Position numbers and translations under genes: made by a program
The notes under the pieces: model-generated
The model's database searches: none
What the model saw: the letters and a program-made list of their open reading frames with translations, nothing else
What the model was told of the DNA's origin: nothing
Shown: one piece after another, positions 225 through 26,491 of the stretch
How the letters are laid out: each line of letters begins with the position of its first letter
Numbering within the stretch: the stretch's first letter is position 1
Source of the DNA: Melioribacteraceae bacterium
GTDB lineage: Bacteria > Bacteroidota > Ignavibacteria > Ignavibacteriales > Melioribacteraceae
Direction: 5' to 3'
Assembly: GCA_015493615.1 (NCBI GenBank)
Contig: WGCV01000038.1
Coordinates: 1-55,572 of the forward strand
DNA: 55,572 bases

Positions 225-1235
225 ATGTTAATAGATAAAAAAGCATATCAGAATATTTTAAATGAGATTATTTCAATTGTTGAAAATTCTAAAAATCAAT
301 TGATAATCCAAGCAAATAGTGTCTTAACATTGACTTTTTGGAATGTCGGAAACCAAATTAAAAAAGAGATATTAAAAGACAAAAGAGCAGAATATGGAAA
401 ACAAATTGTCGTTACGCTGTCACGAGATTTAGTAAAAAAATATGGACACTCATACGATGAAAAAAATTTAAGGCGAATGATACAATTTGCAAAGATATTC
501 TCTGACCCTGAAATTGTCGTTACACTGTCACGACAATTATCGTGGTCTCATTTTTTAGTTCTACTTCCATTAAAAAACGAAAACGAAAGGTTATTTTATG
601 CTAAACTTGTAATGGATAATAAGTTTAGTGTGAGAGATTTAAGAAAACAGATTTCTAAAAAAGTATTTGAAAGAACCATAAATGCAGATATACAAATATA
701 TGATAGTAAAACAATAGAAAAAGGAATATTAAAAGATCCGTATTTACTTGACTTTCTTGATCTGAAAACCGGATATTTAGAAAATGATTTAGAAAGTGCC
801 ATTCTTAAAGAATTAGAATTATTTTTACTTGAATTAGGAAACGGATTTACATTTGTAGAGCGTCAAAAAAGAATGATTATTGACGGCGACGATTATTATT
901 TAGATTTACTTTTTTATCATCGAAAAATCAAAAGACTTGTCGCTATTGAACTTAAAATTGACAAATTCAAAGCCAAATACAAAGGTCAAATGGAGTTATA
1001 TTTGAAATGGCTTGAAAAATATGAAAAACAAGAAGGAGAAAAATCACCAATCGGGATAATTTTATGCACCGAAGCAAGTAAAGAACAAATTGAATTGCTT
1101 GAAATGCACAAAGACGGAATAATGGTTGCTGAATATTGGACTGAATTTTTACCTAAAAAAGAATTAGAAAAAAAATTACATCAAGTATTAATAGAAGCAA
1201 GAGAAAGAATGAAAAGAAAAAAACTAAAAGATTAA
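225..1235 (+). CDS. YhcG/DUF1016-family PD-(D/E)XK nuclease
   Basis: The 336-residue protein has the two-part layout of the YhcG (DUF1016) family: a helical N-terminal domain (about residues 8-150, with the family-typical QLSWSHF at 104-110) and a C-terminal PD-(D/E)XK nuclease-like fold. The likely catalytic residues are visible: D227 in YYLDLLFY, then E242 and K244 in IELK, with a downstream Q255. A short stretch is repeated inside the N-terminal domain (IVVTLSR at 61-67 and 97-103). Members occur widely in accessory DNA and are often linked to restriction-modification or defence loci, but no such partner is visible here. The gene is AT-rich compared with the core genes downstream, which suggests transfer. 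The substrate cannot be told from sequence. Confidence 0.9.
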   Translation: MLIDKKAYQNILNEIISIVENSKNQLIIQANSVLTLTFWNVGNQIKKEILKDKRAEYGKQIVVTLSRDLVKKYGHSYDEKNLRRMIQFAKIFSDPEIVVTLSRQLSWSHFLVLLPLKNENERLFYAKLVMDNKFSVRDLRKQISKKVFERTINADIQIYDSKTIEKGILKDPYLLDFLDLKTGYLENDLESAILKELELFLLELGNGFTFVERQKRMIIDGDDYYLDLLFYHRKIKRLVAIELKIDKFKAKYKGQMELYLKWLEKYEKQEGEKSPIGIILCTEASKEQIELLEMHKDGIMVAEYWTEFLPKKELEKKLHQVLIEARERMKRKKLKD

Positions 1236-1725: not shown

Positions 1726-2940
1726 ATGCAACAGATATTAAGAAAAAAATTACTTAACAAGCTTCTTGTCCTAAAAGATAAGAACTTCATAAAGGTTGTT
1801 ACAGGTGTTCGTCGTGCCGGGAAATCGACTTTACTTTTACAATTTCAAGAATTATTAAAGGGAAAAAACCCGGGTGTGTCGCTTATTTACATAAATATGG
1901 ATTTACCCGAATTCCGTTTTCTTGCTGAAAATAATTGGAAAGAAATTTACGATTATATTCAATCATTGTTACGAGAAAATGAAACAAATTATGTTTTTAT
2001 AGACGAAGTTCAAAACATTCCTGATTTTGAAAAACTCCTTGAAGGACTATATGTTACTTCATATATAGACTTATATGTTACAGGTTCTAACGCCTACCTT
2101 TTATCAAGCGAATTGGCTACCATACTTACAGGTAGAGCATATGAAATTAACGTTTTACCCTTCTCATTTGCCGAATATTTGGAATTTACCGGCAAAACAG
2201 AAAATCATGACCGTGCTTTTGCTAATTATATGCGAACAGGTGGTTTTCCTGAGGCTGCCGGATTGGTTGATGCCGGAGAAAGCTATGTTTATGAATACCT
2301 GAAAACTGTTTTTCGAAACATTTATGAAAACGATATACAAAAACGGCACAAAGTATATTATGAGACATCTTACAACGAAGTGGTTAAGTTTCTAGTTGAT
2401 AGTGTCGGTTCAAGAGTTTCAGCAAGAAATATCGCAAAAGTTCTTACCGCAAACGGGAAAAAAATTGATAATAAAACAGTATCTAAATACATTGATACAC
2501 TTGTGGAATCTTATCTTTTTTATAAAGTAAACAGATACGATATAAAAGGAAAACAGCATTTGTCAACTCAGGAAAAATACTATCTTGTGGATTTAGGTTT
2601 ACGATATGCATTACTTGGAAAAGAACTTACAACAGATACAGGACATTTATTGGAAAATGTGATTTATCTTGAACTACTACGTAGAAATTATCAAATTTGG
2701 ATCGGAAAAACAGATAATCTTGAAGTTGATTTTGTAGTTCGGGATAAAAATGGTTATACTCAATATATTCAAGTAGCATACACGGTTAAAGATAGGAATA
2801 CTCTTGAACGAGAGTTGGCTCCATTTAATAAAATTCCTGACTTTAATGAAAGACTGTTAATTACAATGGATTATGAAACAGGGAACCACAACGGAGTAAA
2901 ACAGATAAATGCTATTGATTGGCTATTAAATTCTGATTAA
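1726..2940 (+). CDS. AAA (AAA_14) ATPase with C-terminal DUF4143 domain
   Basis: The 404-residue protein has the build of the widespread AAA_14/DUF4143 family. Walker A is GVRRAGKST (27-35), Walker B is VFIDE (90-94), a sensor-like TGSNAYLL lies at 119-126 and LTGR at 134-137. The C-terminal region (about 200-370) matches the DUF4143 domain, a degenerate PD-(D/E)XK-like fold; it keeps EVDF but has IQVAY where an active enzyme would have a lysine motif. The role of these ATPases is unknown, and they are often single genes in accessory DNA. This one stands alone between two 41-bp direct repeats and is AT-rich like its left neighbour. A TATCTTTG box lies at 1695-1702. Confidence 0.9.
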   Translation: MQQILRKKLLNKLLVLKDKNFIKVVTGVRRAGKSTLLLQFQELLKGKNPGVSLIYINMDLPEFRFLAENNWKEIYDYIQSLLRENETNYVFIDEVQNIPDFEKLLEGLYVTSYIDLYVTGSNAYLLSSELATILTGRAYEINVLPFSFAEYLEFTGKTENHDRAFANYMRTGGFPEAAGLVDAGESYVYEYLKTVFRNIYENDIQKRHKVYYETSYNEVVKFLVDSVGSRVSARNIAKVLTANGKKIDNKTVSKYIDTLVESYLFYKVNRYDIKGKQHLSTQEKYYLVDLGLRYALLGKELTTDTGHLLENVIYLELLRRNYQIWIGKTDNLEVDFVVRDKNGYTQYIQVAYTVKDRNTLERELAPFNKIPDFNERLLITMDYETGNHNGVKQINAIDWLLNSD

Positions 2941-3417: not shown

Positions 3418-4410
3418 TTACTTATTGGTAAATGTACCGAAATATTTCATGAACTGAACTCTTTGGAGCAGCGAAGGATTATCCACTTTGCCATAGCTTA
3501 ATTTTCCGCGGAAATCGTCAAGGGAATTGTACCCTTTTTTGTTCATCCACTCCTCAAGTTCTTTCAGCATAACGCCGATTTGCTCCGGTCCGTTTTTATA
3601 AAGCGTTGAAGCAACCTGCACGGCTTTTGCTCCGGCAAGTAATTGTTTAATAACGCCCGCTCCGTCGTGAACGCCTGTTGACGCAGCCAAATCACAATCG
3701 ACTCTGTCGGACATCATTGCAATCCATCTGAGGGACATGTAAATATCTCTCGGACCGCTTAAAACATAAGTCGGAGTAACTTTTTCAGAATTAATATCAA
3801 AGTCGGGCGCAAAGAATTTGTTAAAAAGCACCAAACCGCTCAAACCGGTTTCCGATAACTTTTTAATCATCATTCCGAGGTTGGAGAAGTAGTGACTCAT
3901 CTTCAGCGTAACCGGAACATCAACCTCTTTAAGAAGTTTGTTGACAACATCGAAGTAAAGTTTTTCATTCTCATCGCATGTTCTTGTCATATCGGAAGGA
4001 AGAAGAAACATGTTCAGCTCAATTGCGTCAACGCCTACTTCAACCATCTTCTTGGCAAAGTAAACCCATTCGTGGTTGGACATCGCGTTAATGCTTCCGA
4101 TAACCGGAATTTGAGTTTGACGCTTGCACTCGAGAATTAAATCGAGGTAATCATCAACATTCTGCTGTTTTACTCTGGAATCGAAGTAATCGAACAAACC
4201 TTCGTCGTATCCTTCTTTAACCGCCTGACTAACCACATGCTCGGCTTCCATTGTAATTTCTTCTTCAAAAATAGAGCGCAGTACCACGGCTGCAGCGCCG
4301 TTGTTCTCTAAGTTTTTTATGCTTTCGATATTATCCGTTAAAGTTGAACTCGAAGCAATAACCGGGTTCTTTAACGAAAGACCTAAATATTTAGTTGTTA
4401 GATCAGCCAT
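3418..4410 (-). CDS. dihydroorotate dehydrogenase-like FMN flavoprotein
   Basis: This 330-residue TIM-barrel protein resembles class 1 dihydroorotate dehydrogenases. It begins with LTTKYLGLSLKNPVIASS and has a C-terminal FMN-phosphate region (STGVHDGAGVIKQLLAGAKAVQVASTL). The catalytic loop is changed: DHODHs have an NxSCPN-type motif after ELN, whereas here the sequence is ELNMFLLPSD (131-140), without the catalytic Cys or Ser. True pyrimidine synthesis is therefore unlikely. The gene is the last of the operon, one base after the NuoI-GltD fusion gene. Together the two carry the same kinds of modules as dihydropyrimidine dehydrogenase (Fe-S, FAD/NADPH and FMN barrel). A role as an extra flavin subunit or substrate module of the complex is inference. 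Confidence 0.8.
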   Translation of the reverse strand: MADLTTKYLGLSLKNPVIASSSTLTDNIESIKNLENNGAAAVVLRSIFEEEITMEAEHVVSQAVKEGYDEGLFDYFDSRVKQQNVDDYLDLILECKRQTQIPVIGSINAMSNHEWVYFAKKMVEVGVDAIELNMFLLPSDMTRTCDENEKLYFDVVNKLLKEVDVPVTLKMSHYFSNLGMMIKKLSETGLSGLVLFNKFFAPDFDINSEKVTPTYVLSGPRDIYMSLRWIAMMSDRVDCDLAASTGVHDGAGVIKQLLAGAKAVQVASTLYKNGPEQIGVMLKELEEWMNKKGYNSLDDFRGKLSYGKVDNPSLLQRVQFMKYFGTFTNK

Positions 4411-4411
4411 C

Positions 4412-6205
4412 TTAATTTTCCTTATTTAATATAAACTTTTCGATTCCTTTGGTCGCGCGGAAACCATCGGCAATTGCGCTGATAGCGTCTGCGCGGTTGT
4501 TGGCAATGTCGCCGCCGGCAAATAACCACTCAACGCCTGTTTGCTGAGATTCGTTAACTACAATTCTTCCGCGTTTTATCTCAATCTGAGACTTAATTTT
4601 TTCAGATATAAACGAGTAGTCGGCTTCCTGTCCGATAGCTCCGATTACCGCCGTTGTTTCAATGATATGCTCGTCCCCTTCGATTATCTTAGGTCTCGGG
4701 CGTCCGCCTTTAGGATCGGGCACCATCTCGGCGTTTGCATATTTAATCGCAACAACTCTGCCGTTTTCGTTTGTGATAAGCTCAAGCGGAATTGCCTGCG
4801 GTTTAATATGAACGCCTTCATCTTCTGCGCCTTCAATTTCTTCCCAGTCGGCGGGCATATCCTGAACTCTTCTTCTGTAAAGAATCGTTACGTCTGCTCC
4901 GAGACGGCGGGAAACTCTCGCAGCGTCAATCGCCACATTACCGCCGCCGATAACAACAACCTTATCGCCGATTTCAACATGCTTGTCGCTGTTGATTGCG
5001 CGGAGGAAATTTACAGCCTGAATTGAACCTTCGGCTTCTTCGTTTGTCAAACCTATTGAATACGGTTTTTCAAAACCAATTCCGACAAATACCGCTTCAT
5101 GTTTCTGATGGAGTTCTTCAAGCGTTACGTCTTTGCCTACCATTGTGTTGTAATGTATCTTAACTCCGATGCTTTCCATATATTCGATTTGTTTATCGAT
5201 GCTGTCGAGCGGGAGACGATATTTAGGAATGCCGTACATAATCATACCGCCGGCGTGCGCTTTCGATTCGTAAATTTCAACATTAAATCCGCGCATCGCC
5301 AAATAATACGCCGCCGTCAATCCCGAAGGACCGGCGCCGATAATTCCCACGCTGTGTCCGTTAGGCGGAAGAATGGTAGGATTAACAATTTCCTTAACCA
5401 TTTCTTCGTTTGCGGCTCTTTCCGTAGCATAGCGTTTCAGCCAGCGGATTGCAACAGGCTCGCCTCGTTTGCTGATTGCGCAAATCTCCTCGCAGCGGCG
5501 CGTACAAACTTTACCGCAAGTTTCGCCGAGCGGGTTGTTATCGTAAATGATTCGGATTGCATCTTCGTCATTGCCGTGAGCAATGGCGTTAATATATTCC
5601 GGAATATGCATATGAACTGGGCAGTTGTCGGTACAAATACCGCAACCGATACAACGTTCGGCTTCTTTTCTTGCTTCTTCTTCGGAGTAACCGAGAACAA
5701 CTTCGGCGAAAGATTTTACTCTTTCGGAACCTTCCAATTCGCGCATCGGAACGCGGGCATATTCCAGTAGCGAATGTTCGGAATCGGAGACAAAAGATTT
5801 TTTCTCCTTTCCCTCAGGATTATCAACGCCCGGAGTCCACAAAAACGAATCCGCGTCTTCCGTAACATAAATATAATCGGTAGTTAAACTTAACGAGCCG
5901 GTAGGACAAACCTCGACGCAGAGAGCGCACCAGCAGCAGCGTCCGTTATCTACACGCGGTCTTAAGCCGGTATCGCCCGAACTCGGGTCGATTCCTTCAA
6001 TATTTATCATATCGATTGCTTTGTTCTGACAAATAGTAGAACAAGTTCCGCAGCCGATACATTCTTCCAAATCGTTAAAGTGAAGTCCTCTGTAGCGAGG
6101 AGCCGTAACTTTTTCTTCGTAAGGAAATTTAACCGTGTGAGGATGTTTCCCCATCTGATTTAGAGCTTTAAACGGTGACAATATTCCTTTTATATCAAAT
6201 GCCAT
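4412..6205 (-). CDS. NuoI/MbxN-like ferredoxin domain fused to GltD/NfnL-like NAD(P)H oxidoreductase
   Basis: The 597-residue protein joins two parts. Residues 1-115 form a NuoI/MbxN-like 2x[4Fe-4S] ferredoxin domain (C49-x2-C52-x2-C55-x3-C59 and C90-x2-C93-x2-C96-x3-C100). Residues 160-590 form a GltD/NfnL-type flavoprotein. That part has a further C185-x2-C188-x2-C191-x3-C195, then C230, C234, C238 and C242, a FAD site (GAGPSG at 290-295) and a second nucleotide site (GGGNVA at 420-425). The latter is followed by LYRRR, which in this family points to NADPH. The protein would connect NAD(P)H or ferredoxin to the membrane complex. A GltD-like gene next to Mbx genes is, from memory, also found in Thermotoga. 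The gene follows the large-subunit gene by 10 bases. Confidence 0.9.
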   Translation of the reverse strand: MAFDIKGILSPFKALNQMGKHPHTVKFPYEEKVTAPRYRGLHFNDLEECIGCGTCSTICQNKAIDMINIEGIDPSSGDTGLRPRVDNGRCCWCALCVEVCPTGSLSLTTDYIYVTEDADSFLWTPGVDNPEGKEKKSFVSDSEHSLLEYARVPMRELEGSERVKSFAEVVLGYSEEEARKEAERCIGCGICTDNCPVHMHIPEYINAIAHGNDEDAIRIIYDNNPLGETCGKVCTRRCEEICAISKRGEPVAIRWLKRYATERAANEEMVKEIVNPTILPPNGHSVGIIGAGPSGLTAAYYLAMRGFNVEIYESKAHAGGMIMYGIPKYRLPLDSIDKQIEYMESIGVKIHYNTMVGKDVTLEELHQKHEAVFVGIGFEKPYSIGLTNEEAEGSIQAVNFLRAINSDKHVEIGDKVVVIGGGNVAIDAARVSRRLGADVTILYRRRVQDMPADWEEIEGAEDEGVHIKPQAIPLELITNENGRVVAIKYANAEMVPDPKGGRPRPKIIEGDEHIIETTAVIGAIGQEADYSFISEKIKSQIEIKRGRIVVNESQQTGVEWLFAGGDIANNRADAISAIADGFRATKGIEKFILNKEN

Positions 6206-6215
6206 TTAAATTACC

Positions 6216-7319
6216 TCAACGTTCAATTTCTGGTGGACAAGTACCTAAACTGTTCATTATAAAAGATACATCGGCTATGTTTGCTCCCTGCAAGATTCTT
6301 TCGAGCAGCGAAACGCCGTGTACATACGCCGGGCCGCGGGCGTGAACTCTTCTCGGTTTCAACGAGCCGTCGCTAACCGCGTAGTAACCGAACTCGCCGC
6401 GAGCCGATTCCGTTTTAACGTAAGCGTCTCCCGGGGGAACTCTCCAATTGAGCGGGTTAGGAATTTTGTTGTAAAAATCTCCGCCCGGCATATTTTCAAT
6501 CACTTGTCTTACAATCGAAATAGATTGTTCAAATTCCTGACGTCTTACCATTGCGCGCGCCCATACGTCTCCGCCTTCATAGGTCGGAACGATAAAGTTA
6601 AGTTTATCGTAAACTTCGTAAGGTTCGTCAATTCTAACGTCATGTTTAATTCCGCAGCCTCTTAACGGAGCGCCTACTACGCCCCATTCCTGCGCTTTAG
6701 CTTTATCGATTACGCCGACGCCTTTTGCTCTTTTGTAGAATAAAGCATTGTTAAAGAGCAAATCGTCGTAATCTTTTAATCTCTTTTCAAGATAGTCCAT
6801 AACTTTCAGAACTTTATCTCCGAAACCTTCCGGAAGATCCCTGCGAACTCCGCCGGGCCAGATGTACATATGATAAACTCTGCCGCCGGTGAGCTGCTCG
6901 AACAAATCGAGAATATAATCACGATCTCCGACCGTCCACTGGGGCATTGTGTAAAGTCCCATGGAGCCGGACTGTCCGCCCATCCACAAAAGATAAGTTG
7001 CAAGGCGCGAAAGTTCGAGGACAAGCACGCGGATATATTTTGCTCTTTCCGGCACTTCCCTTCCTTCGATTTCCTCAATCACACGCGACAGATTTTCTTC
7101 GTTCGGATCAGGTTCGGGAACGCAGATTCTGCAAACGATAGGGAAGCACTGCAGCCATGTTCTCGCTTCCATTAATTTTTCAAACGCTCTGTGAAGGTAA
7201 CCTACGTGAGTTTCGGCGCTAACAATCGTATCGCCGGTAACTTTAAGTTTTACCATCATGTTTCCGGTAATACCCGGGTGCTGCGGACCTAAATATATTG
7301 TAGTTTCTTTTTCTCTCAT
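6216..7319 (-). CDS. NuoD/MbxL-like large subunit with altered Ni-Fe motifs
   Basis: This 367-residue protein is the large-subunit homologue shared by complex I (NuoD, 49 kDa) and group 4 [NiFe] hydrogenases, as shown by GPQHPGITGN near the N-terminus. Hydrogenases bind Ni-Fe with two CxxC pairs. Here the N-terminal pair reads RIC-VPE (C66, E69) and the C-terminal pair reads GTC-PPE-IER (C361, E364). One cysteine of each pair remains and the second is glutamate. H2 catalysis is not expected. The pattern fits the Mbx/MBS class rather than Mbh hydrogenase, and complex I NuoD would lack these cysteines. The C-terminus ends directly after the motif. The start overlaps the stop of the NuoC-like gene by 4 bases. 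Confidence 0.9.
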   Translation of the reverse strand: MREKETTIYLGPQHPGITGNMMVKLKVTGDTIVSAETHVGYLHRAFEKLMEARTWLQCFPIVCRICVPEPDPNEENLSRVIEEIEGREVPERAKYIRVLVLELSRLATYLLWMGGQSGSMGLYTMPQWTVGDRDYILDLFEQLTGGRVYHMYIWPGGVRRDLPEGFGDKVLKVMDYLEKRLKDYDDLLFNNALFYKRAKGVGVIDKAKAQEWGVVGAPLRGCGIKHDVRIDEPYEVYDKLNFIVPTYEGGDVWARAMVRRQEFEQSISIVRQVIENMPGGDFYNKIPNPLNWRVPPGDAYVKTESARGEFGYYAVSDGSLKPRRVHARGPAYVHGVSLLERILQGANIADVSFIMNSLGTCPPEIER

Positions 7320-7903
7320 TCTAAATGCCGTACTGAATAAACTTTTGCCAATTCAGGGATTTCTTCCCCGCTTTTTTTAGTAATTGTAGTTCTAACATCT
7401 TGTGCATCTTCTCTTCCGGGACGGTTAAAATATGTTTCTTTCGCATATTTAACCGTATCGAAATCTCTTCTCATCGGCGGAATCCCTTCCCAATCTTCCA
7501 AAATGAAATCGGTCAGGTTTCCATGCCCGAGGAAATTAACACCGTACATTTCGTGGATTTCCCGCTCGTAGGTTTCAATCTGCGGCCAGAATTCCCGCAA
7601 TGTAGGAATTTCGGGTTTCTCTCTGTCCAAACGGATTTTCGCAATTACTTCAACCAGGTTGTCGTAGTTCATAACGATATAAACCAACTCGATTTCGTTT
7701 TCTTCAAGCCAGTCAACGGTTGAAATATGGGAAAGGTGTTTAAATCCGAGAGTATCCTTTAAGTAAGCAAGAAAAGGGTGAATCAAATCGTTTCTCAGCT
7801 TAACTTCAACACGCTGTTTTCTCGGGATACTTACTTCAGCCGAATGAAAAGTGTGCTTTATTTTATCTAATATTTCGTTTTCTACTTGTAGTTTAACTTC
7901 CAT
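7316..7903 (-). CDS. NuoC/MbxK-like 30-kDa subunit
   Basis: The 195-residue protein matches the 30-kDa subunit family of complex I and group 4 hydrogenases. The family signature appears as FWPQIETYEREIHEMYGVNF around residues 104-123, followed by the FILEDWEGIPPMRRDF type of ending, which is the C-terminal hallmark (GHPLRKDF in NuoC). It has no cofactor and forms part of the soluble arm beside the large subunit. It overlaps the large-subunit gene by 4 bases and follows the NuoB-like gene by 4 bases, so the three are translated together. Confidence 0.88.
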   Translation of the reverse strand: MEVKLQVENEILDKIKHTFHSAEVSIPRKQRVEVKLRNDLIHPFLAYLKDTLGFKHLSHISTVDWLEENEIELVYIVMNYDNLVEVIAKIRLDREKPEIPTLREFWPQIETYEREIHEMYGVNFLGHGNLTDFILEDWEGIPPMRRDFDTVKYAKETYFNRPGREDAQDVRTTITKKSGEEIPELAKVYSVRHLE

Positions 7904-7907
7904 TATC

Positions 7908-8459
7908 TCACCAATTATAGTCAGGCATGTTCCAATTATGAATTATCTTCTGCTGGTTTGCTCTGTACCAATCCAAATTCTCTTTATATTTCCTTGCGCC
8001 TTCGGCTTTACCTTCGGCTATTACTTTCTGAAGCTCGATAAAACCGCTGATAACGGCTTCGGGACGCGGCATACAGCCGTTAATGTAAACGTCAACCGGA
8101 ATGTACATATCGAGGAGTTTTATCGTATTGTAAGAATCCCAATACATTCCGCCGTTAATCGTGCAAGAACCGAACCCGATAACATACTTGGGGTCCTGCA
8201 TCTGTTCGTAAGTTCTGATTACTCTTTTTAATGTTTTTACCGAAAGATAGCCCGTAATCAAAAGTACGTCCGCTTGTCTCGGAGTTGCGGCTCCGCGGAT
8301 ACCGAAACGCTCGGCGTCGTACCGGGAAGTCATTGTCGGCGGAACTTCAATCGCTCCGCAGCCTGTTCCGTAAGCCAATACCCACAACGAGTGTTTACGG
8401 GCGAATCGTTCTATCGCTTGAACTATTTTCCTTGATTCTTTATCGTATGATACTTCCAT
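7908..8459 (-). CDS. NuoB/MbxJ-like small Fe-S subunit
   Basis: This is the small subunit that binds the [4Fe-4S] cluster next to the active site. I chose the ATG at 8459 (MEVSYDKES, 183 residues): it has an AGGA site and leaves 11 bases after the NuoH-like gene, whereas the longer frame to 8519 would overlap that gene by about 49 bases. Visible ligands are C34 (GTGCGAIE), C99 (GSCT) and C129 (GCMPRPE). NuoB has tandem cysteines (CCAIE) at the first site; here the second is glycine, so only three of the four usual ligands can be seen. Confidence 0.9.
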   Translation of the reverse strand: MEVSYDKESRKIVQAIERFARKHSLWVLAYGTGCGAIEVPPTMTSRYDAERFGIRGAATPRQADVLLITGYLSVKTLKRVIRTYEQMQDPKYVIGFGSCTINGGMYWDSYNTIKLLDMYIPVDVYINGCMPRPEAVISGFIELQKVIAEGKAEGARKYKENLDWYRANQQKIIHNWNMPDYNW

Positions 8460-8470
8460 ATTCTCGTTTC

Positions 8471-9382
8471 CTACAAAACAACTATTAATATTGCAATAAT
8501 TCCGAAAACTGTCGGCCATTTCCAGAAGAACGTAATAGCCTGTTCGGTTCTATATCTTGGATTTACAATGCCCGTCAGAACGGGAATCATATAAAGTAAA
8601 AATGTTTTAACAATCAAAGTTACAAGGTCGCCTGCGCCTCCGAGGAAAATATCTGTAAAGAGGACTAATTTAGCGAAAGTAAAAATTGAGCCGCTTGTCT
8701 GCATCAGGGCTAAGTATTTTCCTCCAAACTCCGAAGCGGGACCGGAAGCGATTTCAGCCGGAGCAAAAGTAACATCGAAAGGAGCATAATGCATCATACC
8801 GAGAAACGCAAGTATTGCGGCAATAAATGCAAAAGGCGATTGAAAAATAAGCCAGTTGGAAAAACCATCCTGAACTGCCATTAACTCGGCGATTGATGTG
8901 GTTTTAAACTGAATCATAATTGCGACAAGCGCCAGTACAAACGGAACTTCGTAGCCGACCATCAACGCCAAACCTCTCGCTACGCCGATTGCAGAGTTAG
9001 GGTTTCCGGTTTGACCTGCGCCGAGAGCCATGCCCAATGAGCCGAACACCATCATATAAAGCAGAAAGATTATGTCGCCGTTAAAACTGTTGTTCAGCCA
9101 AAGAGGCGAATCTTTAAGCACCGGGATGAAAAACAGCGATGTTACTGATGCGGTGATTGCAAAAACCGGGCCCCAGTGCTGCATTAATCCGTGATGTACC
9201 GCAGTTTTCTTACTGTAAAGTTTTATTATATCCCAAAAGTTCTGGGTAATCGGCGGTCCGAAACGGTTCTGGACTCTTGCAGTAATTACTCTTACGATAC
9301 CGCCGTAAGTTACGCCGACCACAAAAGCCGTAATCGGAGTAATTATATATCCCAAAATTTTTAGCCAAGTTGATGAATCCAT
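8471..9382 (-). CDS. NuoH/MbxM-like membrane subunit
   Basis: The 303-residue protein has about eight membrane segments and the conserved motifs of the NuoH/HyfC/MbhM family: RVQNRFGPP near residue 36-44, EVPFVLALV, and the acidic loop YAPFDVTFAPAEIASGP. It anchors the soluble arm to the membrane arm and carries the link between redox chemistry and ion pumping. It sits between the second antiporter subunit and the NuoB-like gene, as in Mbx and Mbh operons. Confidence 0.92.
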   Translation of the reverse strand: MDSSTWLKILGYIITPITAFVVGVTYGGIVRVITARVQNRFGPPITQNFWDIIKLYSKKTAVHHGLMQHWGPVFAITASVTSLFFIPVLKDSPLWLNNSFNGDIIFLLYMMVFGSLGMALGAGQTGNPNSAIGVARGLALMVGYEVPFVLALVAIMIQFKTTSIAELMAVQDGFSNWLIFQSPFAFIAAILAFLGMMHYAPFDVTFAPAEIASGPASEFGGKYLALMQTSGSIFTFAKLVLFTDIFLGGAGDLVTLIVKTFLLYMIPVLTGIVNPRYRTEQAITFFWKWPTVFGIIAILIVVL

Positions 9383-9409: not shown

Positions 9410-11269
9410 CTATAAATGAATACCAAATATTGAACCGGAAAATAGAATCAGAATCACTACCATCAGGATTACATACATTGCGTAAGTCTGACCGTTTCCC
9501 GTATAAACATATCTCAAATACTCAAATGTCGATTCGAGGTTTTCGCCTAATAAGTTAAACAATTTATCCACGCTCCATTTAAGAATCGGGGCAATTGCTC
9601 TTTCAAACGGCTGATTAAAATTAACCGCATAAGTCAAATTTTCATTTTCAGTCGGAATTTCACCGGCAGTGTGAATATCTTTAGTTGAAACGACTCTGGT
9701 TGCTTTTCTATTCTTAAAGCCGATGAACAAAGCACCGAGAATAAATATCGTGCCTATTGTTCCGGCAATTACCTGCATATTGATTTTTTCACCCCAAGCG
9801 CTGAAGACAACCTGCGGTTCCCATGACGCTTTGAAGTTTCCGAGATATCCCATTGCCTTTCCAATCGGATCCAATACAAGTCCCGGAAATACGCCGGCAA
9901 CCAAAACAAACAGAGTCAGAAGCATCATCGGGACAAGCATTGACCAGGGAACTTCCTTAACATGTTCAAACTCTTTTTCCCTCTGCCCCAAGAACAATGA
10001 GAAAATAAATCTGTAGAGATAGAGGAATGCCGCCGTACTTGCGATAAATATCACAATAATCAAAAAGTAATGATTTGTTTCGAGCAGAGCTTGATAAAGC
10101 ATCCATTTTGAAATAAATCCTCCGAGCGGCGGGATTCCCGCAACGCTTATAATACCGAATAGCGCGGTTAAGAACGTCAGAGGCATTTTTGTAATCAGTC
10201 CCGAAACGTCATCCAAGCTTGTGGTGCCGGTTCTCATATAAACAGCTCCGGCGGACATAAATAACATTGCCTTAAATGCGCCATGCATAATTGTGAGGAA
10301 CAATGCCGCCATAATTCCGAGCGGAGTTCCGAGCGCCAATCCGACGATAATATATCCCAACTGTCCGATTGAGGAGTAAGCCAAAAGTTTTTTTGCGTCG
10401 CTCTGGATAACTGCGTAAAATGTTGCAAGCATTGCGGTTAAGCCGCCAAGCCAAGCTAATGTTTCTCTTACATAGACAAAAAATTCTGTATTTGCCGCAA
10501 ACTTAAAGACTACCAAGCCCAGTCCGAAAATACCCATTTTTGATAACGCGCCGGAAAATACCGCGGTAAATCCGGAGGGCGATTCCTTGTAAGCTTCGGG
10601 CGCCCAAACATGCAGAGGCATCATCGCGCTTTTAACTCCAAATCCGAGAGCGAGAAACGAAATTACCATAATTTGAGTTCCGAGACTCATACCGGAAAAC
10701 ATCTTAACGTTTTCACTAAGCAAAAATGAATTGGACTGCGCGTAAAGAATAACAATCGCGGATAAAATTAAGTACGCCCCGATTGCGCTGTAAGCAAAAT
10801 ATTTAATGCCCGCTTTGTGTGATTTTTCTTCGCCGGAATAAATAACCAGCATAAAGGAAGACCAAGTCATAACTTCCCAGAAGAAGAAGAGGGAAACTAA
10901 ATCCTGACTGTAAACAATTCCCAGCATTGCTCCGAGCGCAAAGAGGAAATTCATATAGTAATAGCCTAAATTCTTTTTCCCTGCCATAAAGTCCATGGAA
11001 TAAAGAATCCCGAGAAATCCGAGAACCGCAACCAGCATGGCAAATAGCGCTGAATAGTTAGTGCTTTTCCAAACAAGCGTAATGGAACCGAGCGCCAATG
11101 TATATTCGCCGCCGCACGAAGGAAGAGCAAAGACTAAATATCCTGCAAACGCAGCAATTATTGCTGCCGTCCACGAAGCTCCTTTGGGAACAAAACGGTT
11201 TGCAAGCCAAGCCAGCACTCCGCCTAAAAACATAACCGATAATATTACTGGAACCGAAATCATATTCAA
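9410..11269 (-). CDS. NuoL/MrpD-type antiporter subunit H' with C-terminal extension
   Basis: The 619-residue membrane protein belongs to the NuoL/M/N-MrpA/D antiporter family (Proton_antipo_M). Conserved pieces include VSLFFFWEVMTWSSF, the half-channel stretch around KSAMMPLHVWAPEAYKESPS, and AYSSIGQLGYI. It is about 130 residues longer than its neighbour. The extra C-terminal part contains a soluble-looking linker and a last membrane helix, as expected for the H' subunit of Mbx/MBS, which has a lateral helix. Two antiporter subunits in a row (H and H') is the feature that separates Mbx/MBS from Mbh, which has one. It likely translocates Na+ or H+. Confidence 0.9.
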   Translation of the reverse strand: MNMISVPVILSVMFLGGVLAWLANRFVPKGASWTAAIIAAFAGYLVFALPSCGGEYTLALGSITLVWKSTNYSALFAMLVAVLGFLGILYSMDFMAGKKNLGYYYMNFLFALGAMLGIVYSQDLVSLFFFWEVMTWSSFMLVIYSGEEKSHKAGIKYFAYSAIGAYLILSAIVILYAQSNSFLLSENVKMFSGMSLGTQIMVISFLALGFGVKSAMMPLHVWAPEAYKESPSGFTAVFSGALSKMGIFGLGLVVFKFAANTEFFVYVRETLAWLGGLTAMLATFYAVIQSDAKKLLAYSSIGQLGYIIVGLALGTPLGIMAALFLTIMHGAFKAMLFMSAGAVYMRTGTTSLDDVSGLITKMPLTFLTALFGIISVAGIPPLGGFISKWMLYQALLETNHYFLIIVIFIASTAAFLYLYRFIFSLFLGQREKEFEHVKEVPWSMLVPMMLLTLFVLVAGVFPGLVLDPIGKAMGYLGNFKASWEPQVVFSAWGEKINMQVIAGTIGTIFILGALFIGFKNRKATRVVSTKDIHTAGEIPTENENLTYAVNFNQPFERAIAPILKWSVDKLFNLLGENLESTFEYLRYVYTGNGQTYAMYVILMVVILILFSGSIFGIHL

Positions 11270-11290: not shown

Positions 11291-12754
11291 TTAAAACAAT
11301 CCTGCCTTTATGTAATCGGCAGCATTTAGTAAATTATTAGCAGCGGGCGCCAACCACTTTTCAATAACGCCCGGATATAAACCAACATATAAAATTATTG
11401 CGGCAAGAATTCCCATGGCAACCAATCCTGAAATAGGCGTGCGGCGCACATTATCGGGAACTTCTTTCCTTGTATAAAGCTTAACAACAGCTCTTAAATA
11501 ATAAATTGCTTCTATTACGCTTCCGGTTAAAATCAGAAGCAGTATTGCAATATCGCCCGCTTTTGCTACAGATACCAAAATCAGCAGCTTGCTCCAAAAT
11601 CCCGAGAAAGGAGGAAGACCGATAATAGCCAGCGCTCCTACTGCAAAGAAGAAACTTGTTACCGGCTTGTCGTAGCCCAAACCTTCCAAATCCTCAATTT
11701 GCTTTGATCCGGAATGAAACACCAGATAACCGGCGGCGAAGAATAAAAGCGACTTAATCAAAGCGTGATTAAACATTTGGAACAACGCCGCGCTTGTGCT
11801 TCCCATAGTCCCGATTCCGAGCGCGATAATTACCAAGCCCATTTGTCCGATACTGGAAAACGCAAGCATTCTTTTAATCTGATGCTGACGCATTGCAGCC
11901 ATTTCCGCAATCAACAATGTTAAAATTCCCATGAAGATGAGGAACTGCATAACTTCCGGAGTTTTGAAGAATAAGAAAACAATTCTTATCATCGCGTAAA
12001 GTCCGGCTTTTACAACTATTCCGCCGAAAACAGCGCCAACGGGACTCGGAGCCTGTGAATAAGCGTCCGGCGCCCAGCCGTTAAGGGGAAACATTTCCGC
12101 TTCGATTCCCATTCCGACTAAAACCAGAACGAGAACAAAACCTTTTGCCATCGGGGGAATTAAATCTATTTTTCCGGCGATATCGGCAAAATTAAGCGTT
12201 CCCGTATAACTGTAGATAATCATTACGGAAAGAAGATAAAATGTGGATGAAAACGAACCGATAAGCAGATATTTAAATGCAGCTTCGGCGCCATCCTTGT
12301 CGCGGAGAAATGCCGTTAACGAATATGCCGCAATCGAAGTAATTTCGAGAAATACGAACATATTGAACATATCGCCCGTGAGCAAAATTCCCGTCGAACC
12401 GGTTATCAGCATCATAAAAAGCATGTAGTACTTTTCAATCGGTTCGCGGATAATAAATTTATAGCTGTATAACCAAATTACAAATCCGACTATTGTAACC
12501 ATTGTGATCAAAAAAGCCGCCGTCGCTCCGTAATAGAGGGAAATTCCAAACGGAGGTTTAAAACCGGCAACTACCTGAACAATAGGTTTTTCCATTGCTT
12601 TCGGGAAAAGAAGAATCGAACCGTATGACAAATAGAGAAATACGATTCCGGGAGTTAACTTTACTAAAGTTTTAGAAACTTTTCCCAACAATGGAATTAA
12701 AAAAGCTGCAAAAAGAGGGATTGCTATATAGAGTACAGGAGAAAATTCCATCAA
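11291..12754 (-). CDS. mrpD: MrpD/MbxH-like cation:proton antiporter subunit
   Basis: The 487-residue protein has about 14 membrane segments and the MrpD/MnhD signatures: FLEITSIAAYSLTAF, EAEMFPLNGWAPDAYSQAPS and AFSSIGQMGLV. The glutamate after the second family helix and the lysines in the discontinuous helices are in place, so it should be an active ion-translocating unit. It lies between MrpC and the longer H' subunit, with gaps of 7 and 21 bases. Confidence 0.92.
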   Translation of the reverse strand: MMEFSPVLYIAIPLFAAFLIPLLGKVSKTLVKLTPGIVFLYLSYGSILLFPKAMEKPIVQVVAGFKPPFGISLYYGATAAFLITMVTIVGFVIWLYSYKFIIREPIEKYYMLFMMLITGSTGILLTGDMFNMFVFLEITSIAAYSLTAFLRDKDGAEAAFKYLLIGSFSSTFYLLSVMIIYSYTGTLNFADIAGKIDLIPPMAKGFVLVLVLVGMGIEAEMFPLNGWAPDAYSQAPSPVGAVFGGIVVKAGLYAMIRIVFLFFKTPEVMQFLIFMGILTLLIAEMAAMRQHQIKRMLAFSSIGQMGLVIIALGIGTMGSTSAALFQMFNHALIKSLLFFAAGYLVFHSGSKQIEDLEGLGYDKPVTSFFFAVGALAIIGLPPFSGFWSKLLILVSVAKAGDIAILLLILTGSVIEAIYYLRAVVKLYTRKEVPDNVRRTPISGLVAMGILAAIILYVGLYPGVIEKWLAPAANNLLNAADYIKAGLF

Positions 12755-12761
12755 ATCCTTC

Positions 12762-13103
12762 CTACCATTTCAATTGTCTGATCTTGTTAATATTTAATGT
12801 TTTATGATGGTCGTAAAGTCTGATGACCAAACCGAGCGCTACCGCCGTAGTCGCAAGTCCGATTACGATAGCCGTAAGTACCAAAGCTTGCGGAACAGGG
12901 TCAACCATCTTATCGGCAGTGAGCGAAGGCATCGAAAAAATAGGCGCCGTCGCATCCTTTACGTATCCTACCGAGATGAATAAAAGATTAACACCACTAT
13001 CTACAATGGAAAGTCCGACAACGATTTTCAGAAGATTTTTCTTCGTAAGAACCGCGTACATTCCGATTAATATTAGTGATATTGCTCCGATATAATATAG
13101 CAT
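12762..13103 (-). CDS. mrpC: MrpC/MbxG-like subunit (NuoK family)
   Basis: The 113-residue protein has three membrane segments in the NuoK/MrpC pattern, with the family motif ADKMVDPVPQALVLTAIVIG around residues 66-85 (MrpC proteins carry DPLPQALVLTAIVI). It is the small subunit that packs between the antiporter subunits and the connecting part of the complex. It follows the MrpB-type gene by 10 bases. Confidence 0.92.
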   Translation of the reverse strand: MLYYIGAISLILIGMYAVLTKKNLLKIVVGLSIVDSGVNLLFISVGYVKDATAPIFSMPSLTADKMVDPVPQALVLTAIVIGLATTAVALGLVIRLYDHHKTLNINKIRQLKW

Positions 13104-13113
13104 TCTATATTTC

Positions 13114-13794
13114 CTACCTAATAGTTTTTAACATGTTATCCAAAACGCCGGTTAATTCCGCGCCTACCTTAAATCCGACGGCGATATAAATAATCGGTAT
13201 AATTCCCGCGCTTACCAAGTCGTTGGGGGTTCCGAGCGGCAAAAAGTTCTGCAAGAATGTCGTGCCGAGAGCAAGCCCGATTAACCCGACCGTTGCAAAT
13301 GTTAATCCGGCTAACGATTCAATCCAAGTTAAAGCATTATGACTGACATTGAAATGCCTGTAGGACATAAACATCAGCAAAACGCCAGTGGCGATAATTG
13401 CGCCTCCCTGGAAACCTCCGCCCGGAGTCAGATGCCCGTGAACAAATACATAAGCGCCGAGAAGAACGACCATCGGGTAAAGCATCATCGAAGTTGTTTT
13501 CACGATAACGCTTGCGCCCTGCAGACGGCGTTTTTCGCCGCGTTTGCCGAACAAAATGGCTCCGAGACCCGTTGCCGCAAGAAACAGCACGGTTACCTCG
13601 CCGAGCGTATCAAAACCTCTGTAACTTACGACAATAGCCGTAACTACGTTAGCCGCGCCGGTTTCTTTAACGGTGTTTTCCAAATAATATTTCCCAACGC
13701 CTTCGCGTTTTTCGCCGAAAGGCATGTGGATAAAAACATTTATAAAATAATACCCTACTATTGCGAGCAGAAGTATCGCGATTGCTTTTCTCAT
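13114..13794 (-). CDS. mrpB: MbhE/F (MrpB-type) membrane subunit
   Basis: The 226-residue protein combines an N-terminal part similar to MbhE (one helix, then NVVTAIVVSYRGFDTLGEVTVLF) with a C-terminal MnhB/MbhF domain (HGHLTPGGGFQGGAIIATG). In Mbh and Mrp systems these may be separate or joined; here they form one chain. It belongs to the cation-translocating module. It overlaps the MbhD-like gene by 4 bases. Confidence 0.88.
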   Translation of the reverse strand: MRKAIAILLLAIVGYYFINVFIHMPFGEKREGVGKYYLENTVKETGAANVVTAIVVSYRGFDTLGEVTVLFLAATGLGAILFGKRGEKRRLQGASVIVKTTSMMLYPMVVLLGAYVFVHGHLTPGGGFQGGAIIATGVLLMFMSYRHFNVSHNALTWIESLAGLTFATVGLIGLALGTTFLQNFLPLGTPNDLVSAGIIPIIYIAVGFKVGAELTGVLDNMLKTIR

Positions 13795-14039
13795 TCTTCG
13801 TACCTATCGGTTTTCTTAATTGCAATTACAAAAATGATTGTTGAAAGCGCCACCCCGATTGCGGCTTCGGTTAACGCCACGTCGGGAGCCTGGAGCAAAT
13901 AAAACAAAACTGATAAAACAACACTGATTGCCGATGTTCCAAGCGCTGCAAGGAGCAAATCTTTCTGCCAAACAGAAAACAGAGCGGCAATAATCTGAAC
14001 AACAACCAATACCAAAACTAAAACTGCCAACCAACTCAT
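13791..14039 (-). CDS. MbhD-like (DUF4040) small membrane subunit
   Basis: The 82-residue protein has three membrane helices and the DUF4040 core ALTEAAIGVALSTIIFVIAI, which corresponds to MbhD and to a segment of MrpA. No full MrpA exists in the operon. MrpA's parts are supplied by this gene, the MbhE-type N-terminus of the next gene and the large antiporter subunits, as in Mbh/Mbx systems. It overlaps both neighbours by 4 bases. Confidence 0.85.
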   Translation of the reverse strand: MSWLAVLVLVLVVVQIIAALFSVWQKDLLLAALGTSAISVVLSVLFYLLQAPDVALTEAAIGVALSTIIFVIAIKKTDRYEE

Positions 14040-14386
14040 TCTTCTTCATCCTCCGATTTATCAACAACCGGCTCCAGATCGTCCATATTTTCTTCTTTCG
14101 TGAAAGGTCTGATTCCCATTTTATAGCTTCCCCGCGCCAAAGCATGGGAGCTGATAGGGTTGGATATTGCGATAAAAACAGCAATAATCAAAGTTTTCCA
14201 AAACCATTCGGGATGCACCAAGCCGACGCCGAAAATTGTTCCCATCGTTCCGAAAGTAACGGATTTTGTTGCCGTCTGCATTCTGGAATAAACATCCGGC
14301 ATTCTAAAAAGTCCGAGCGCGCCGAGAAAAAGGAAAGCCACTCCGATAACAATAATTACCCAGCCGATAATTTCAACAACGCCCAT
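14036..14386 (-). CDS. mrpG: MrpG/MnhG-like subunit
   Basis: The 116-residue protein has three membrane helices and the MnhG motifs GALGLFRMPDVYSRMQTATKS (residues about 22-42) and NPISSHALARGSYK. The last 25 residues are acidic and predicted soluble, a common tail. It overlaps its neighbours by 4 bases and 1 base. Confidence 0.92.
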   Translation of the reverse strand: MGVVEIIGWVIIVIGVAFLFLGALGLFRMPDVYSRMQTATKSVTFGTMGTIFGVGLVHPEWFWKTLIIAVFIAISNPISSHALARGSYKMGIRPFTKEENMDDLEPVVDKSEDEEE

Positions 14387-14634
14387 TATAAACCTCCCTC
14401 CAAATATCTTGCGAGAGTAAGAACGCCGATAAAGGATAAAACGCCGTAAATAAGCGCAACATCGATATAAATATAACGGTCGAAGTACAAACCGAGTAAA
14501 ACCAGACCGGCTGTAGTAATCGTTGTAATATTATCGAGCGCTACAATTCTATCCGACGGGGTTGGTCCTTTTAATCCGCGATGTACAACAAAAAAGGTTG
14601 CTAATCCCAATACAATCAAGATGTATAATATCAT
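14386..14634 (-). CDS. mrpF: MrpF/MnhF-like subunit
   Basis: The 82-residue protein has three membrane helices and the MnhF core GPTPSDRIVALDNITTITTAGL, with the conserved Asp of this family. It overlaps mrpE by 4 bases and mrpG by one base. It belongs to the Mrp-like module of the complex. Confidence 0.92.
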   Translation of the reverse strand: MILYILIVLGLATFFVVHRGLKGPTPSDRIVALDNITTITTAGLVLLGLYFDRYIYIDVALIYGVLSFIGVLTLARYLEGGL

Positions 14635-15119
14635 TTAAAAAATTCCTTTAAAATCTTTTCAAAATCTTCTCCGATTTCTCGGACAATTCCTTCAGGATCC
14701 TTTGTGGTTACGTCAATCCAATGAATAAAAAGACTATTATCGATAACGTCCACGGTTAACGTTCCGGGAGTCAGCGTAATAGAATTGGCAAGAATGGTAA
14801 CTGCCGTTGGATTGGTCAGCTGAGTTTTATACTCAACTATTCCGGGGTTGATTGGTAACTTAGGCGAGATTACACGCTTGGCGACGTCAATGTTCGCCTT
14901 AATCAGAGCTATCATAAATACAAATAAATACTTGATAATAAGAACCACGCGGCGGGGCGAGAAAAATCCCAGCCCTTCTACAGTAAAAGTTTTGTATGAA
15001 AATGACGCTATGATTAAACTGAGGACTGCACCCGTAATAAGTTCCGCAGTTGCGAGAGATGTTGTGAAGCCTAACCAAATCAGAAACAAGACAATAAAAG
15101 TAAATAAGAATCGGCTCAT
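14631..15119 (-). CDS. mrpE: MrpE/MnhE-like subunit, first gene of the operon
   Basis: The 162-residue protein has an N-terminal pair of membrane helices, a third around residues 58-76, and the MnhE C-terminal domain with the signature NSITLTPGTLTVDV and the FIHWID strand. It is the first gene of the 14-gene Mbx-like operon. In the Mrp antiporter MrpE helps assembly. The ATG at 15119 is followed by an unbroken frame, and an inverted repeat lies about 55-75 bases upstream. Confidence 0.92.
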   Translation of the reverse strand: MSRFLFTFIVLFLIWLGFTTSLATAELITGAVLSLIIASFSYKTFTVEGLGFFSPRRVVLIIKYLFVFMIALIKANIDVAKRVISPKLPINPGIVEYKTQLTNPTAVTILANSITLTPGTLTVDVIDNSLFIHWIDVTTKDPEGIVREIGEDFEKILKEFFK

Positions 15120-24931: not shown

Positions 24932-26491
24932 TTATTTTAATGTGATTTCTTTTTCAACTTCGCGTAAAATTTCGCCCGATTCCACCAGCTCAATCGCTTT
25001 ATCCAGTTGAGTGTAAAGGATTCTGTCCCTCTTAATCGGTTTAATTTTTTTTCTGATAATGCTGTATGCTACGGACGTTCCTTTTCCACACTTCAGCGGT
25101 TTTAGGAACTCCGCGCCCTGCGCCGCCGTAAGAAGCTCAATCGCAATAACTTTCTGCGCATTTTTTAATATCTGATAACAATGGCGGGCGGCAATCGAAC
25201 CCATGGAGTTGTGATCCTCCTGATTAGCCGAAGTCGGGATTGAATCGACGCTTGCCGGATGAGCGAGTGTTTTATTCTCCGAGACCAGCGCCGCCGCCGT
25301 ATATTGGGCAATCATCAAGCCGGAATTTAATCCTCCTTTTTCCGTAAGAAAACGGGGAAGCATACTCAACGAACCGTTTACAAGCCGCTCGGTTCGCCGT
25401 TCGGAAACATTCGCCAATTCGGCGAGAGCGATTTTCATAAAATCCAGAGGAAGAGCGACCGGCTGTCCGTGAAAGTTTCCCCCTTCGAGATGATCCCCGT
25501 CGTCGGGAAAAATCAGCGGATTATCGTTTGCCGAATTCAGCTCGATCTCAACCTGCGAACAGATGAAATTTACTGCGTCCTTTGACGCTCCGTGAATCTG
25601 CGGAACGCAGCGGAGAGAGTAAGAATCCTGAACGCGGTTGTCGTTTTTCAGATGCGACTTTCTTATTTCGCTTCCTTTAATCATATTAAGCATATTTTGC
25701 GCCGTGTTTATTTGTCCTTTGTAGGGACGAAGTTTATGAAGACGCAAATCGTAGGCTTTGTCGGTGCCTCGCAGAGCTTCGTGCGAAAGCGCGGCGGCAA
25801 TATCGGAAATTTTAGCAAGCTCGCGGGATTTAATGCAAACGTATGAAGCGAAGGCGGTCATCATCTGCGTTCCGTTGTTAAGGGAAAGCCCTTCCTTTGC
25901 AGTCAGTTTTGCCGGCGTTAATCCGAATTTCTTTAAAACGCTTTTTGCGCCTTGTACCTTTGCATCAGCCGCTTCCGGGGAATTGATATCGGGAATAATT
26001 TGAACTTTCCCTTCCCCGATCATTGCAAGCACGAGATGAGATAAAGGCGCCAAATCGCCGCTTGAGCCGACGGACCCTTGAGATGGAATTACGGGAATAA
26101 TATTATTGTTCATCATGTCAATCAGCAGCTGAAGAGTCGAAAGACGAATGCCGGAAAAACCCTTGGCAAGCGCGTTAGCGCGTAACAGCATCATTATTTT
26201 AACTATGTGCGGCGGAAGCGGTTCGCCTACTCCGGCTGCGTGACTTCTGATAAGGTTAACTTGTAATTCCTCGATATGCTCTTTTGAAATTTTAACGTTG
26301 GCAAATTCGCCAAATCCGGTTGTAACTCCGTAAATGACCTCGTCAGATTCAACCCATTTTTCAATTTGTTTACGGGCTTTTATAACATTTGCTTTTGATT
26401 CTTTCGATAAAACAACAGTAGAGTTTTCTTTAAGGAAGAAATCTATTTTTTCCAGAGTCAAAGAATTTCCGTCAATAATCAATTTTTTCAT
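24932..26491 (-). CDS. hutH: histidine ammonia-lyase (aromatic amino acid lyase)
   Basis: The 519-residue protein belongs to the MIO-dependent lyases, with GVTTGFG (55-61), SHAAGVG (83-89, H84 at the HAL substrate-binding position), GSVGSSGDLAPLSH (139-152) and NQEDHNSMG. These positions favour histidine as substrate, giving trans-urocanate and ammonia. The MIO triad is normally Ala-Ser-Gly; here it is Ser143-Ser144-Gly145, confirmed in the DNA (tca agc ggc on the minus strand). Thr-Ser-Gly variants are known in relatives, so activity is plausible. No other hut genes are nearby. The nuclease gene lies 10 bases downstream. Confidence 0.88.
   Translation of the reverse strand: MKKLIIDGNSLTLEKIDFFLKENSTVVLSKESKANVIKARKQIEKWVESDEVIYGVTTGFGEFANVKISKEHIEELQVNLIRSHAAGVGEPLPPHIVKIMMLLRANALAKGFSGIRLSTLQLLIDMMNNNIIPVIPSQGSVGSSGDLAPLSHLVLAMIGEGKVQIIPDINSPEAADAKVQGAKSVLKKFGLTPAKLTAKEGLSLNNGTQMMTAFASYVCIKSRELAKISDIAAALSHEALRGTDKAYDLRLHKLRPYKGQINTAQNMLNMIKGSEIRKSHLKNDNRVQDSYSLRCVPQIHGASKDAVNFICSQVEIELNSANDNPLIFPDDGDHLEGGNFHGQPVALPLDFMKIALAELANVSERRTERLVNGSLSMLPRFLTEKGGLNSGLMIAQYTAAALVSENKTLAHPASVDSIPTSANQEDHNSMGSIAARHCYQILKNAQKVIAIELLTAAQGAEFLKPLKCGKGTSVAYSIIRKKIKPIKRDRILYTQLDKAIELVESGEILREVEKEITLK

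Follow-up and report, generated by a model that had tools for sequence, protein, structure and literature searches.

The closest described system is the MBS complex of P. furiosus, and the same family also includes the hydrogenase MBH, the bacterial MBX complex and complex I. In MBH, the Ni-Fe centre is held by four cysteines of the large subunit MbhL (C68, C71, C374, and C377; PMC11228991), and it is by their cysteine pairs that hydrogenases have been told from MbxL and NuoD (PMC6085437). Two of these four cysteines are absent in MBS, and the two that are left, C85 and C385 of MbsL, lie close together, adjacent to the proximal cluster, and were named as a potential site about 12 Å from it (Yu et al. 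2020, PMC7684303). As reported in the same work, the catalytic site is the proximal [4Fe-4S] cluster, which is held only by C28, C93, and C123 of MbsJ, and both the MbsL C85A/C385A and the MbsJ C25A variants had an activity on dimethyltrisulfide comparable to that of the wild type, in an assay that used the cytoplasmic subcomplex and this model substrate (PMC7684303). The quinone ligands of complex I are given there as H38 and Y87 of Nqo4. With regard to expression, the mbxA gene of the T. maritima MBX, a homolog of MBS, was reported to rise with sulfur or thiosulfate (PMC9431562), and 10 of the 13 MBS genes of strain 3DAC were reported to do so with sulfur (PMC10356935). In the genome paper of Caldithrix abyssi, a complex I locus is described together with a second locus, a putative NADH dehydrogenase that comprises 11 genes and lacks NuoEFG, and the terms "Mrp," "Mbx," "sulfane," and "antiporter" are absent from it as whole words (PMC5317091).

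The window, that is, the whole stretch of 55,572 nucleotides that was analysed, belongs to a Melioribacteraceae bacterium (assembly GCA_015493615.1, contig WGCV01000038.1). It contains an operon of the MBS type, which reads from position 15119 down to position 3418 in the order A B C D E G H H' M J K L N and is followed by a dihydroorotate dehydrogenase (DHOD)-like gene (Table 1). As in MBS, two antiporter-like subunits and a series of small Mrp-type subunits are present, the four smallest being named by their place only. As the orthologue set we used the best 80 of 156 confirmed places of the large subunit, mostly from assemblies of Bacteroidota/Chlorobiota, Ignavibacteria (Melioribacteraceae), and Calditrichota. 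The complete A-to-N order was found in 45 of these best 80 of 156 loci, with one pair of small genes swapped in 2 more, and K precedes L in 79; in the remaining loci some of these genes are missing, and many of these loci are short contigs.

Table 1. Features of the window, with positions, strand and basis of assignment
Feature	Positions	Strand	Basis or remark
DUF1016/YhcG PDDEXK nuclease	225-1235	+	beyond the DHOD-like gene
AAA_14/DUF4143 ATPase	1726-2940	+	beyond the DHOD-like gene
Dihydroorotate dehydrogenase-like protein	3418-4410	-	directly after N; PRK07565, over its cut-off
MbsN-type 2x[4Fe-4S] part + NfnL/GltD-like NADPH oxidoreductase	4412-6205	-	597 aa; 17 conserved Cys
MbsL/MbxL-type large subunit	6216-7319	-	367 aa; C63, C66, E69 in N-terminal motif; C361, E364 in C-terminal motif
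MbsK-type subunit (Complex1_30kDa)	7316-7903	-	family scan
MbsJ-type small subunit	7908-8519	-	C54, C119, C149 = P. furiosus MbsJ C28, C93, C123; G51 for P. furiosus C25
MbsM-type membrane anchor (NADHdh/NuoH family)	8471-9382	-	overlaps the listed MbsJ ORF
MbsH'-type antiporter-like subunit	9410-11269	-	best NCBIfam match PRK08668, below its cut-off; Proton_antipo_M
MbsH-type antiporter-like subunit	11291-12754	-	best NCBIfam match PRK08377, below its cut-off; Proton_antipo_M
MbsG/MnhC-type subunit	12762-13103	-	family scan
MbhE + MnhB-type subunit	13114-13794	-	both Pfam domains in one ORF
Small MbsD-type membrane subunit	13791-14039	-	named by operon place; homologs in 49/80 loci (best 80 of 156)
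Small MbsC/MnhG-type subunit	14036-14386	-	named by place; homologs in 49/80 loci (best 80 of 156)
Small MbsB/MnhF-type subunit	14386-14634	-	named by place; homologs in 49/80 loci (best 80 of 156)
MbsA/MnhE-type subunit, first gene of the set	14631-15119	-	named by place; homologs in 49/80 loci (best 80 of 156)
Aromatic amino acid lyase	24932-26491	-	Pfam PF00221, 634.5 bits

The translated large subunit bears the motifs RIC66-VP-E69 and GTC361-PP-E364. The first-pass annotation had placed these four residues at the four Ni-Fe ligand positions, and this is borne out by an alignment with three hydrogenase large subunits from relatives (3 of 9 candidate ORFs, chosen by a length of 380 to 520 aa; locus L137 gave no candidate), in which C66 and E69 stand under the two cysteines of RICGIC/RICGVC and C361 and E364 under both cysteines of DPCxxC. 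The HMMER alignment to MbhL stops at residue 361 of the query and residue 374 of the chain. Where group 4 [NiFe] hydrogenases (MBH) have two CxxC pairs, the large subunit described here has CxxE twice.

Among solved structures, the best match is P. furiosus MbsL (6u8y_L, E value of 5.6e-107), followed by complex I Nqo4 (2fug_4, 1.7e-71) and MbhL (6cfw_L, 3.5e-38). The identity to 6u8y_L is 171 of 360 aligned residues (47.5%), and the alignment pairs C66 with C85, E69 with E88, C361 with C385, and E364 with D388, the P. furiosus protein reading RICVPE and CPPDIDR at its two ends. C66, E69, C361, and E364 are invariant in all of the best 80 of 156 orthologues, which are 71 to 99% identical, and the first three are also found in P. 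furiosus, so the earlier judgement that the pattern is not a random loss holds. One of the six peptide patterns of the scan, EPDPNEEN, starts at E69 and introduces a mild bias to rows with this residue; orthologues L003 to L011 overlap the 80 and were not added to the count. Invariance alone is a weak argument, since 123 of the 367 positions do not vary among the best 80 of 156 orthologues. A stronger fact is a set of only 30 positions that are invariant in these 80 (best 80 of 156), the same in P. furiosus MbsL and unlike the genome's own NuoD, which includes C66, V67, P68, E69, C361, P362, and P363. To judge from these comparisons, the cysteine/glutamate pattern is a signature of the MBS/MBX family that was already in print. 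It had been asked beforehand whether Mbx large subunits already carry exactly this pattern; they largely do, with the qualification that P. furiosus has Asp as the second partner and that 6u8y_L is the sole distant MBS row in the residue comparison. As for distribution, MbsL orthologues were found at an E value of <1e-200 in 9 of 96 other close relatives, and in this search a genome of the same genus, reported to be 100% complete, had none.

The small subunit MbsJ agrees with the published picture of the proximal cluster. Its three cysteines C54, C119, and C149 are kept in 73 (with one gap), 74, and 74 of 74 aligned rows, which come from 74 of the 80 loci (best 80 of 156). As the lineage has Gly at the place of MbsJ C25, it is a natural counterpart of the C25 mutant of P. 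furiosus, which fits the conclusion reported for that mutant (PMC7684303). The listed MbsJ ORF and that of MbsM share 49 bases. As residues 9 and 14 of the listed MbsJ belong to a stretch missing from 71 of the 74 aligned rows (from the best 80 of 156 loci), its true start is probably further in.

The N subunit departs from the stand-alone, ferredoxin-accepting MbsN of P. furiosus MBS. In the window, 6u8y_N matches residues 8 to 118 (an MbsN/NuoI-like part) and 5jca_L matches residues 150 to 593 (an NfnL/GltD-like part), while MbsN of P. furiosus is a separate chain of 208 aa that matches only residues 8 to 118. The fusion is present in 70 of 70 long ORFs of relatives (from the best 80 of 156 loci), and so are all 17 cysteines, which would be enough for four [4Fe-4S] clusters. 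These counts use 70 of 77 rows, as 7 ORFs of <550 aa, all cut by a contig end, were dropped; 66 of the 77 ORFs, all among the 70 long ones, reach a stop codon before their contig ends, 3 of the 80 loci have no match to N, and no locus shows a separate short N (all from the best 80 of 156). In pairwise alignment, C230 of N faces a Thr of P. furiosus NfnL, and the last cluster of N may for this reason have a fourth cysteine ligand that is missing in NfnL. The fusion is not new in kind, since the NCBIfam model PRK13984.1 covers N nearly over its full length (669 bits, which falls short of its cut-off of 946; positions 8 to 609 of 611) and since 1 of 14 well-known control genomes passes this cut-off. 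Among 247 genomes sampled from the phylum, the model matches at an E value of about 1e-200, starting at position 7, only in the genome of the window and in one of its genus; the next-best match, at 2.8e-106, starts at position 197. Among the open-licence PMC papers listed in literature searches, no title or abstract opening dealt with an MBS-type complex fused to NfnL, which does not prove that the fusion has gone undescribed. A stand-alone MbsN is taken here as a feature of P. furiosus that does not define MBS; a strict definition would exclude the complex of the window.

In 35 of the best 80 of 156 loci, a DHOD-like gene lies next to the MBS-type operon and is read from its strand; in 18 loci it stands upstream of A, and in 17 it stands downstream of N (in 2 of these at 2.3 to 2.5 kb). 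Where >1.1 kb of sequence was available on both sides (n = 22, from the best 80 of 156), the gene was found in 15 loci and was absent in 7. Since a DHO_dh match elsewhere in the genome is stronger (260 bits versus 61 bits), the gene of the operon is probably not the pyrimidine enzyme.

With the homology, the residue positions, the gene set, and the fusion established in this analysis, we consider it likely that the gene codes for an MbsL-type large subunit of a bacterial MBS/MBX complex, in which catalysis takes place at the MbsJ cluster and which works as an NADPH-fed, ion-pumping polysulfide reductase. C66 and C361 would be the pair of cysteines retained in subunits of this kind once the Ni-Fe site was lost, with E69 and E364 at the places of the other two, and neither Cys/Glu pair would hold a metal centre or do chemistry. 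NADPH would reduce the flavin of the NfnL-like module fused to MbsN, and the electrons would pass via the [4Fe-4S] clusters of N to the proximal [4Fe-4S] cluster of the adjoining MbsJ, the most likely site of catalysis. This cluster is predicted to have a free iron facing the former Ni-Fe cavity, because it has only three cysteine ligands, and a polysulfide or another disulfide-like substrate would be reduced there, driving ion pumping by the Mrp-like membrane arm. NADPH as the donor, polysulfide as the acceptor, and ion pumping are what we infer for this organism, and the dispensability of the cysteines and cluster-based catalysis are assumed by analogy, being carried over from P. furiosus only (PMC7684303).

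The main competitor keeps the same subunit in a different complex, an ion-pumping ferredoxin:NADP+ oxidoreductase in which electrons would leave for NADP+ through the NfnL-like module, with sulfur reduction secondary or missing altogether. The consistent fusion of N to an NfnL/GltD-like module (70 of 70 long ORFs from the best 80 of 156 loci, versus the separate MbsN of P. furiosus) is what speaks for this arrangement, which we regard as unlikely but worth keeping in mind: there would be no need for the conserved three-cysteine cluster of MbsJ and the MbsL signature in a complex whose electrons exit via the flavin, and the response of T. maritima mbxA to sulfur or thiosulfate (PMC9431562) also points the other way. 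A quinone-reducing variant of complex I is very improbable. It could be argued from the homology to NuoD and from the match to the NCBIfam model for NADH-quinone oxidoreductase subunit D (421.8 bits, over the cut-off of 360), but this name decides nothing, because the solved MBS chain was itself deposited as "NADH dehydrogenase subunit D." The quinone ligands of NuoD are not found in the large subunit, where T18 and V67 align with Nqo4 H38 and Y87. Both are invariant in all of the best 80 of 156 orthologues, whereas 21 of 21 NuoD-type paralogues, the genome's own NuoD among them, have His and Tyr there, and on this ground a quinone reductase was rejected. These paralogues (L002 and L012 to L031, the loci that were fetched, which are part of all matches) also have Asp at 63 and 66, Tyr at 67, and Val at 361. 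The NuoD-type gene of the same genome is a separate one, on another contig.

The symmetrical change from Cys to Glu emphasized in the first-pass annotation stands insofar as Glu occupies both partner places. The symmetry is only apparent, however, because all 21 NuoD-type paralogues examined (21 of 21) have Glu at 364 as well, and P. furiosus MbsL has Asp; the C-terminal Glu is thus shared across the NuoD/MbsL side of the family, which leaves E69 as the one glutamate that is specific to the MBS type. We therefore rejected the symmetrical change as such. Complex I is not known to hold a metal at the place of Glu 364. An altered metal site had been proposed on the basis of these residues; whether of Ni-Fe or of another metal, it would have two cysteines and two glutamates as ligands, and the residues do sit at ligand positions and are invariant in the best 80 of 156 orthologues. 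Nevertheless, searches of the genome (96.8% complete, 67 contigs) turned up neither a [NiFe] hydrogenase-family match nor one to the maturase HypD, which makes a Ni-Fe site very unlikely, although the absence of HypD could stem from the incompleteness of the genome. As E364 is in addition shared with the NuoD-type paralogues, and no metal is described at this place in the account of MBS available to us (PMC7684303), an altered metal site is scarcely credible and was rejected. The other proposal of the annotation, a redox-active cysteine pair, would make C66 and C361, together with C63, a thiol/disulfide or persulfide site in sulfur chemistry, and we find it improbable. C66 and C361 occur without exception in the best 80 of 156 orthologues and also in P. 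furiosus, their counterparts were named as a potential site (PMC7684303), and C63, which the first-pass annotation overlooked, completes a CxxC in the motif C63-R-x-C66-V-P-E69 of 79 of the 80 (best 80 of 156). Against it, the C85A/C385A variant of P. furiosus was reported to be about as active as the wild type on dimethyltrisulfide (PMC7684303), and the place of C63 is Leu in P. furiosus. In the 21 NuoD-type paralogues this place is Asp, and the clade with C63 comprises Ignavibacteria, Calditrichota, and Bacteroidota. A version specific to this clade, in which the C63-C66 CxxC, close to C361 given a fold like that of P. furiosus MbsL, would form with the NADPH-fed N a thiol-based disulfide/polysulfide site, seems decidedly improbable to us; such a site would necessarily have escaped the mutants made in P. 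furiosus, because that protein has Leu there.

An MBS-type complex fed by NADPH through its fused module, if the preferred reading is true, would let its hosts respire polysulfide with NADPH while pumping ions. With two of the four cysteines left, the residue pattern corresponds to the intermediate between [NiFe] hydrogenase and complex I that is already in print. The strict conservation of C66 and C361, whose counterparts were dispensable in the published assay, suggests some role, and because that assay was done on the cytoplasmic subcomplex with a model substrate, a role in coupling, assembly, or regulation could still apply.

Compared with MBS of P. furiosus (6U8Y), the complex of the window has both retained cysteines with acidic partners, the three-cysteine cluster of MbsJ, and the Mrp-like membrane genes, but it differs in having Glu instead of Asp as the second partner, Cys instead of Leu at position 63, Gly in place of C25 in MbsJ, MbsN fused to an NfnL-like NADPH module, and a DHOD-like gene after N. 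MBH (6CFW) has a homologous large subunit as well, with four cysteine ligands and a Ni-Fe site (PMC11228991), whereas only two cysteines remain here. NuoD/Nqo4 of complex I is also homologous and shares the Glu at 364 (21 of 21 examined), but it has no cysteine at these places and possesses the quinone ligands. The system it resembles among bacteria is the MBX of T. maritima, a 13-subunit homolog of MBS (PMC9431562).
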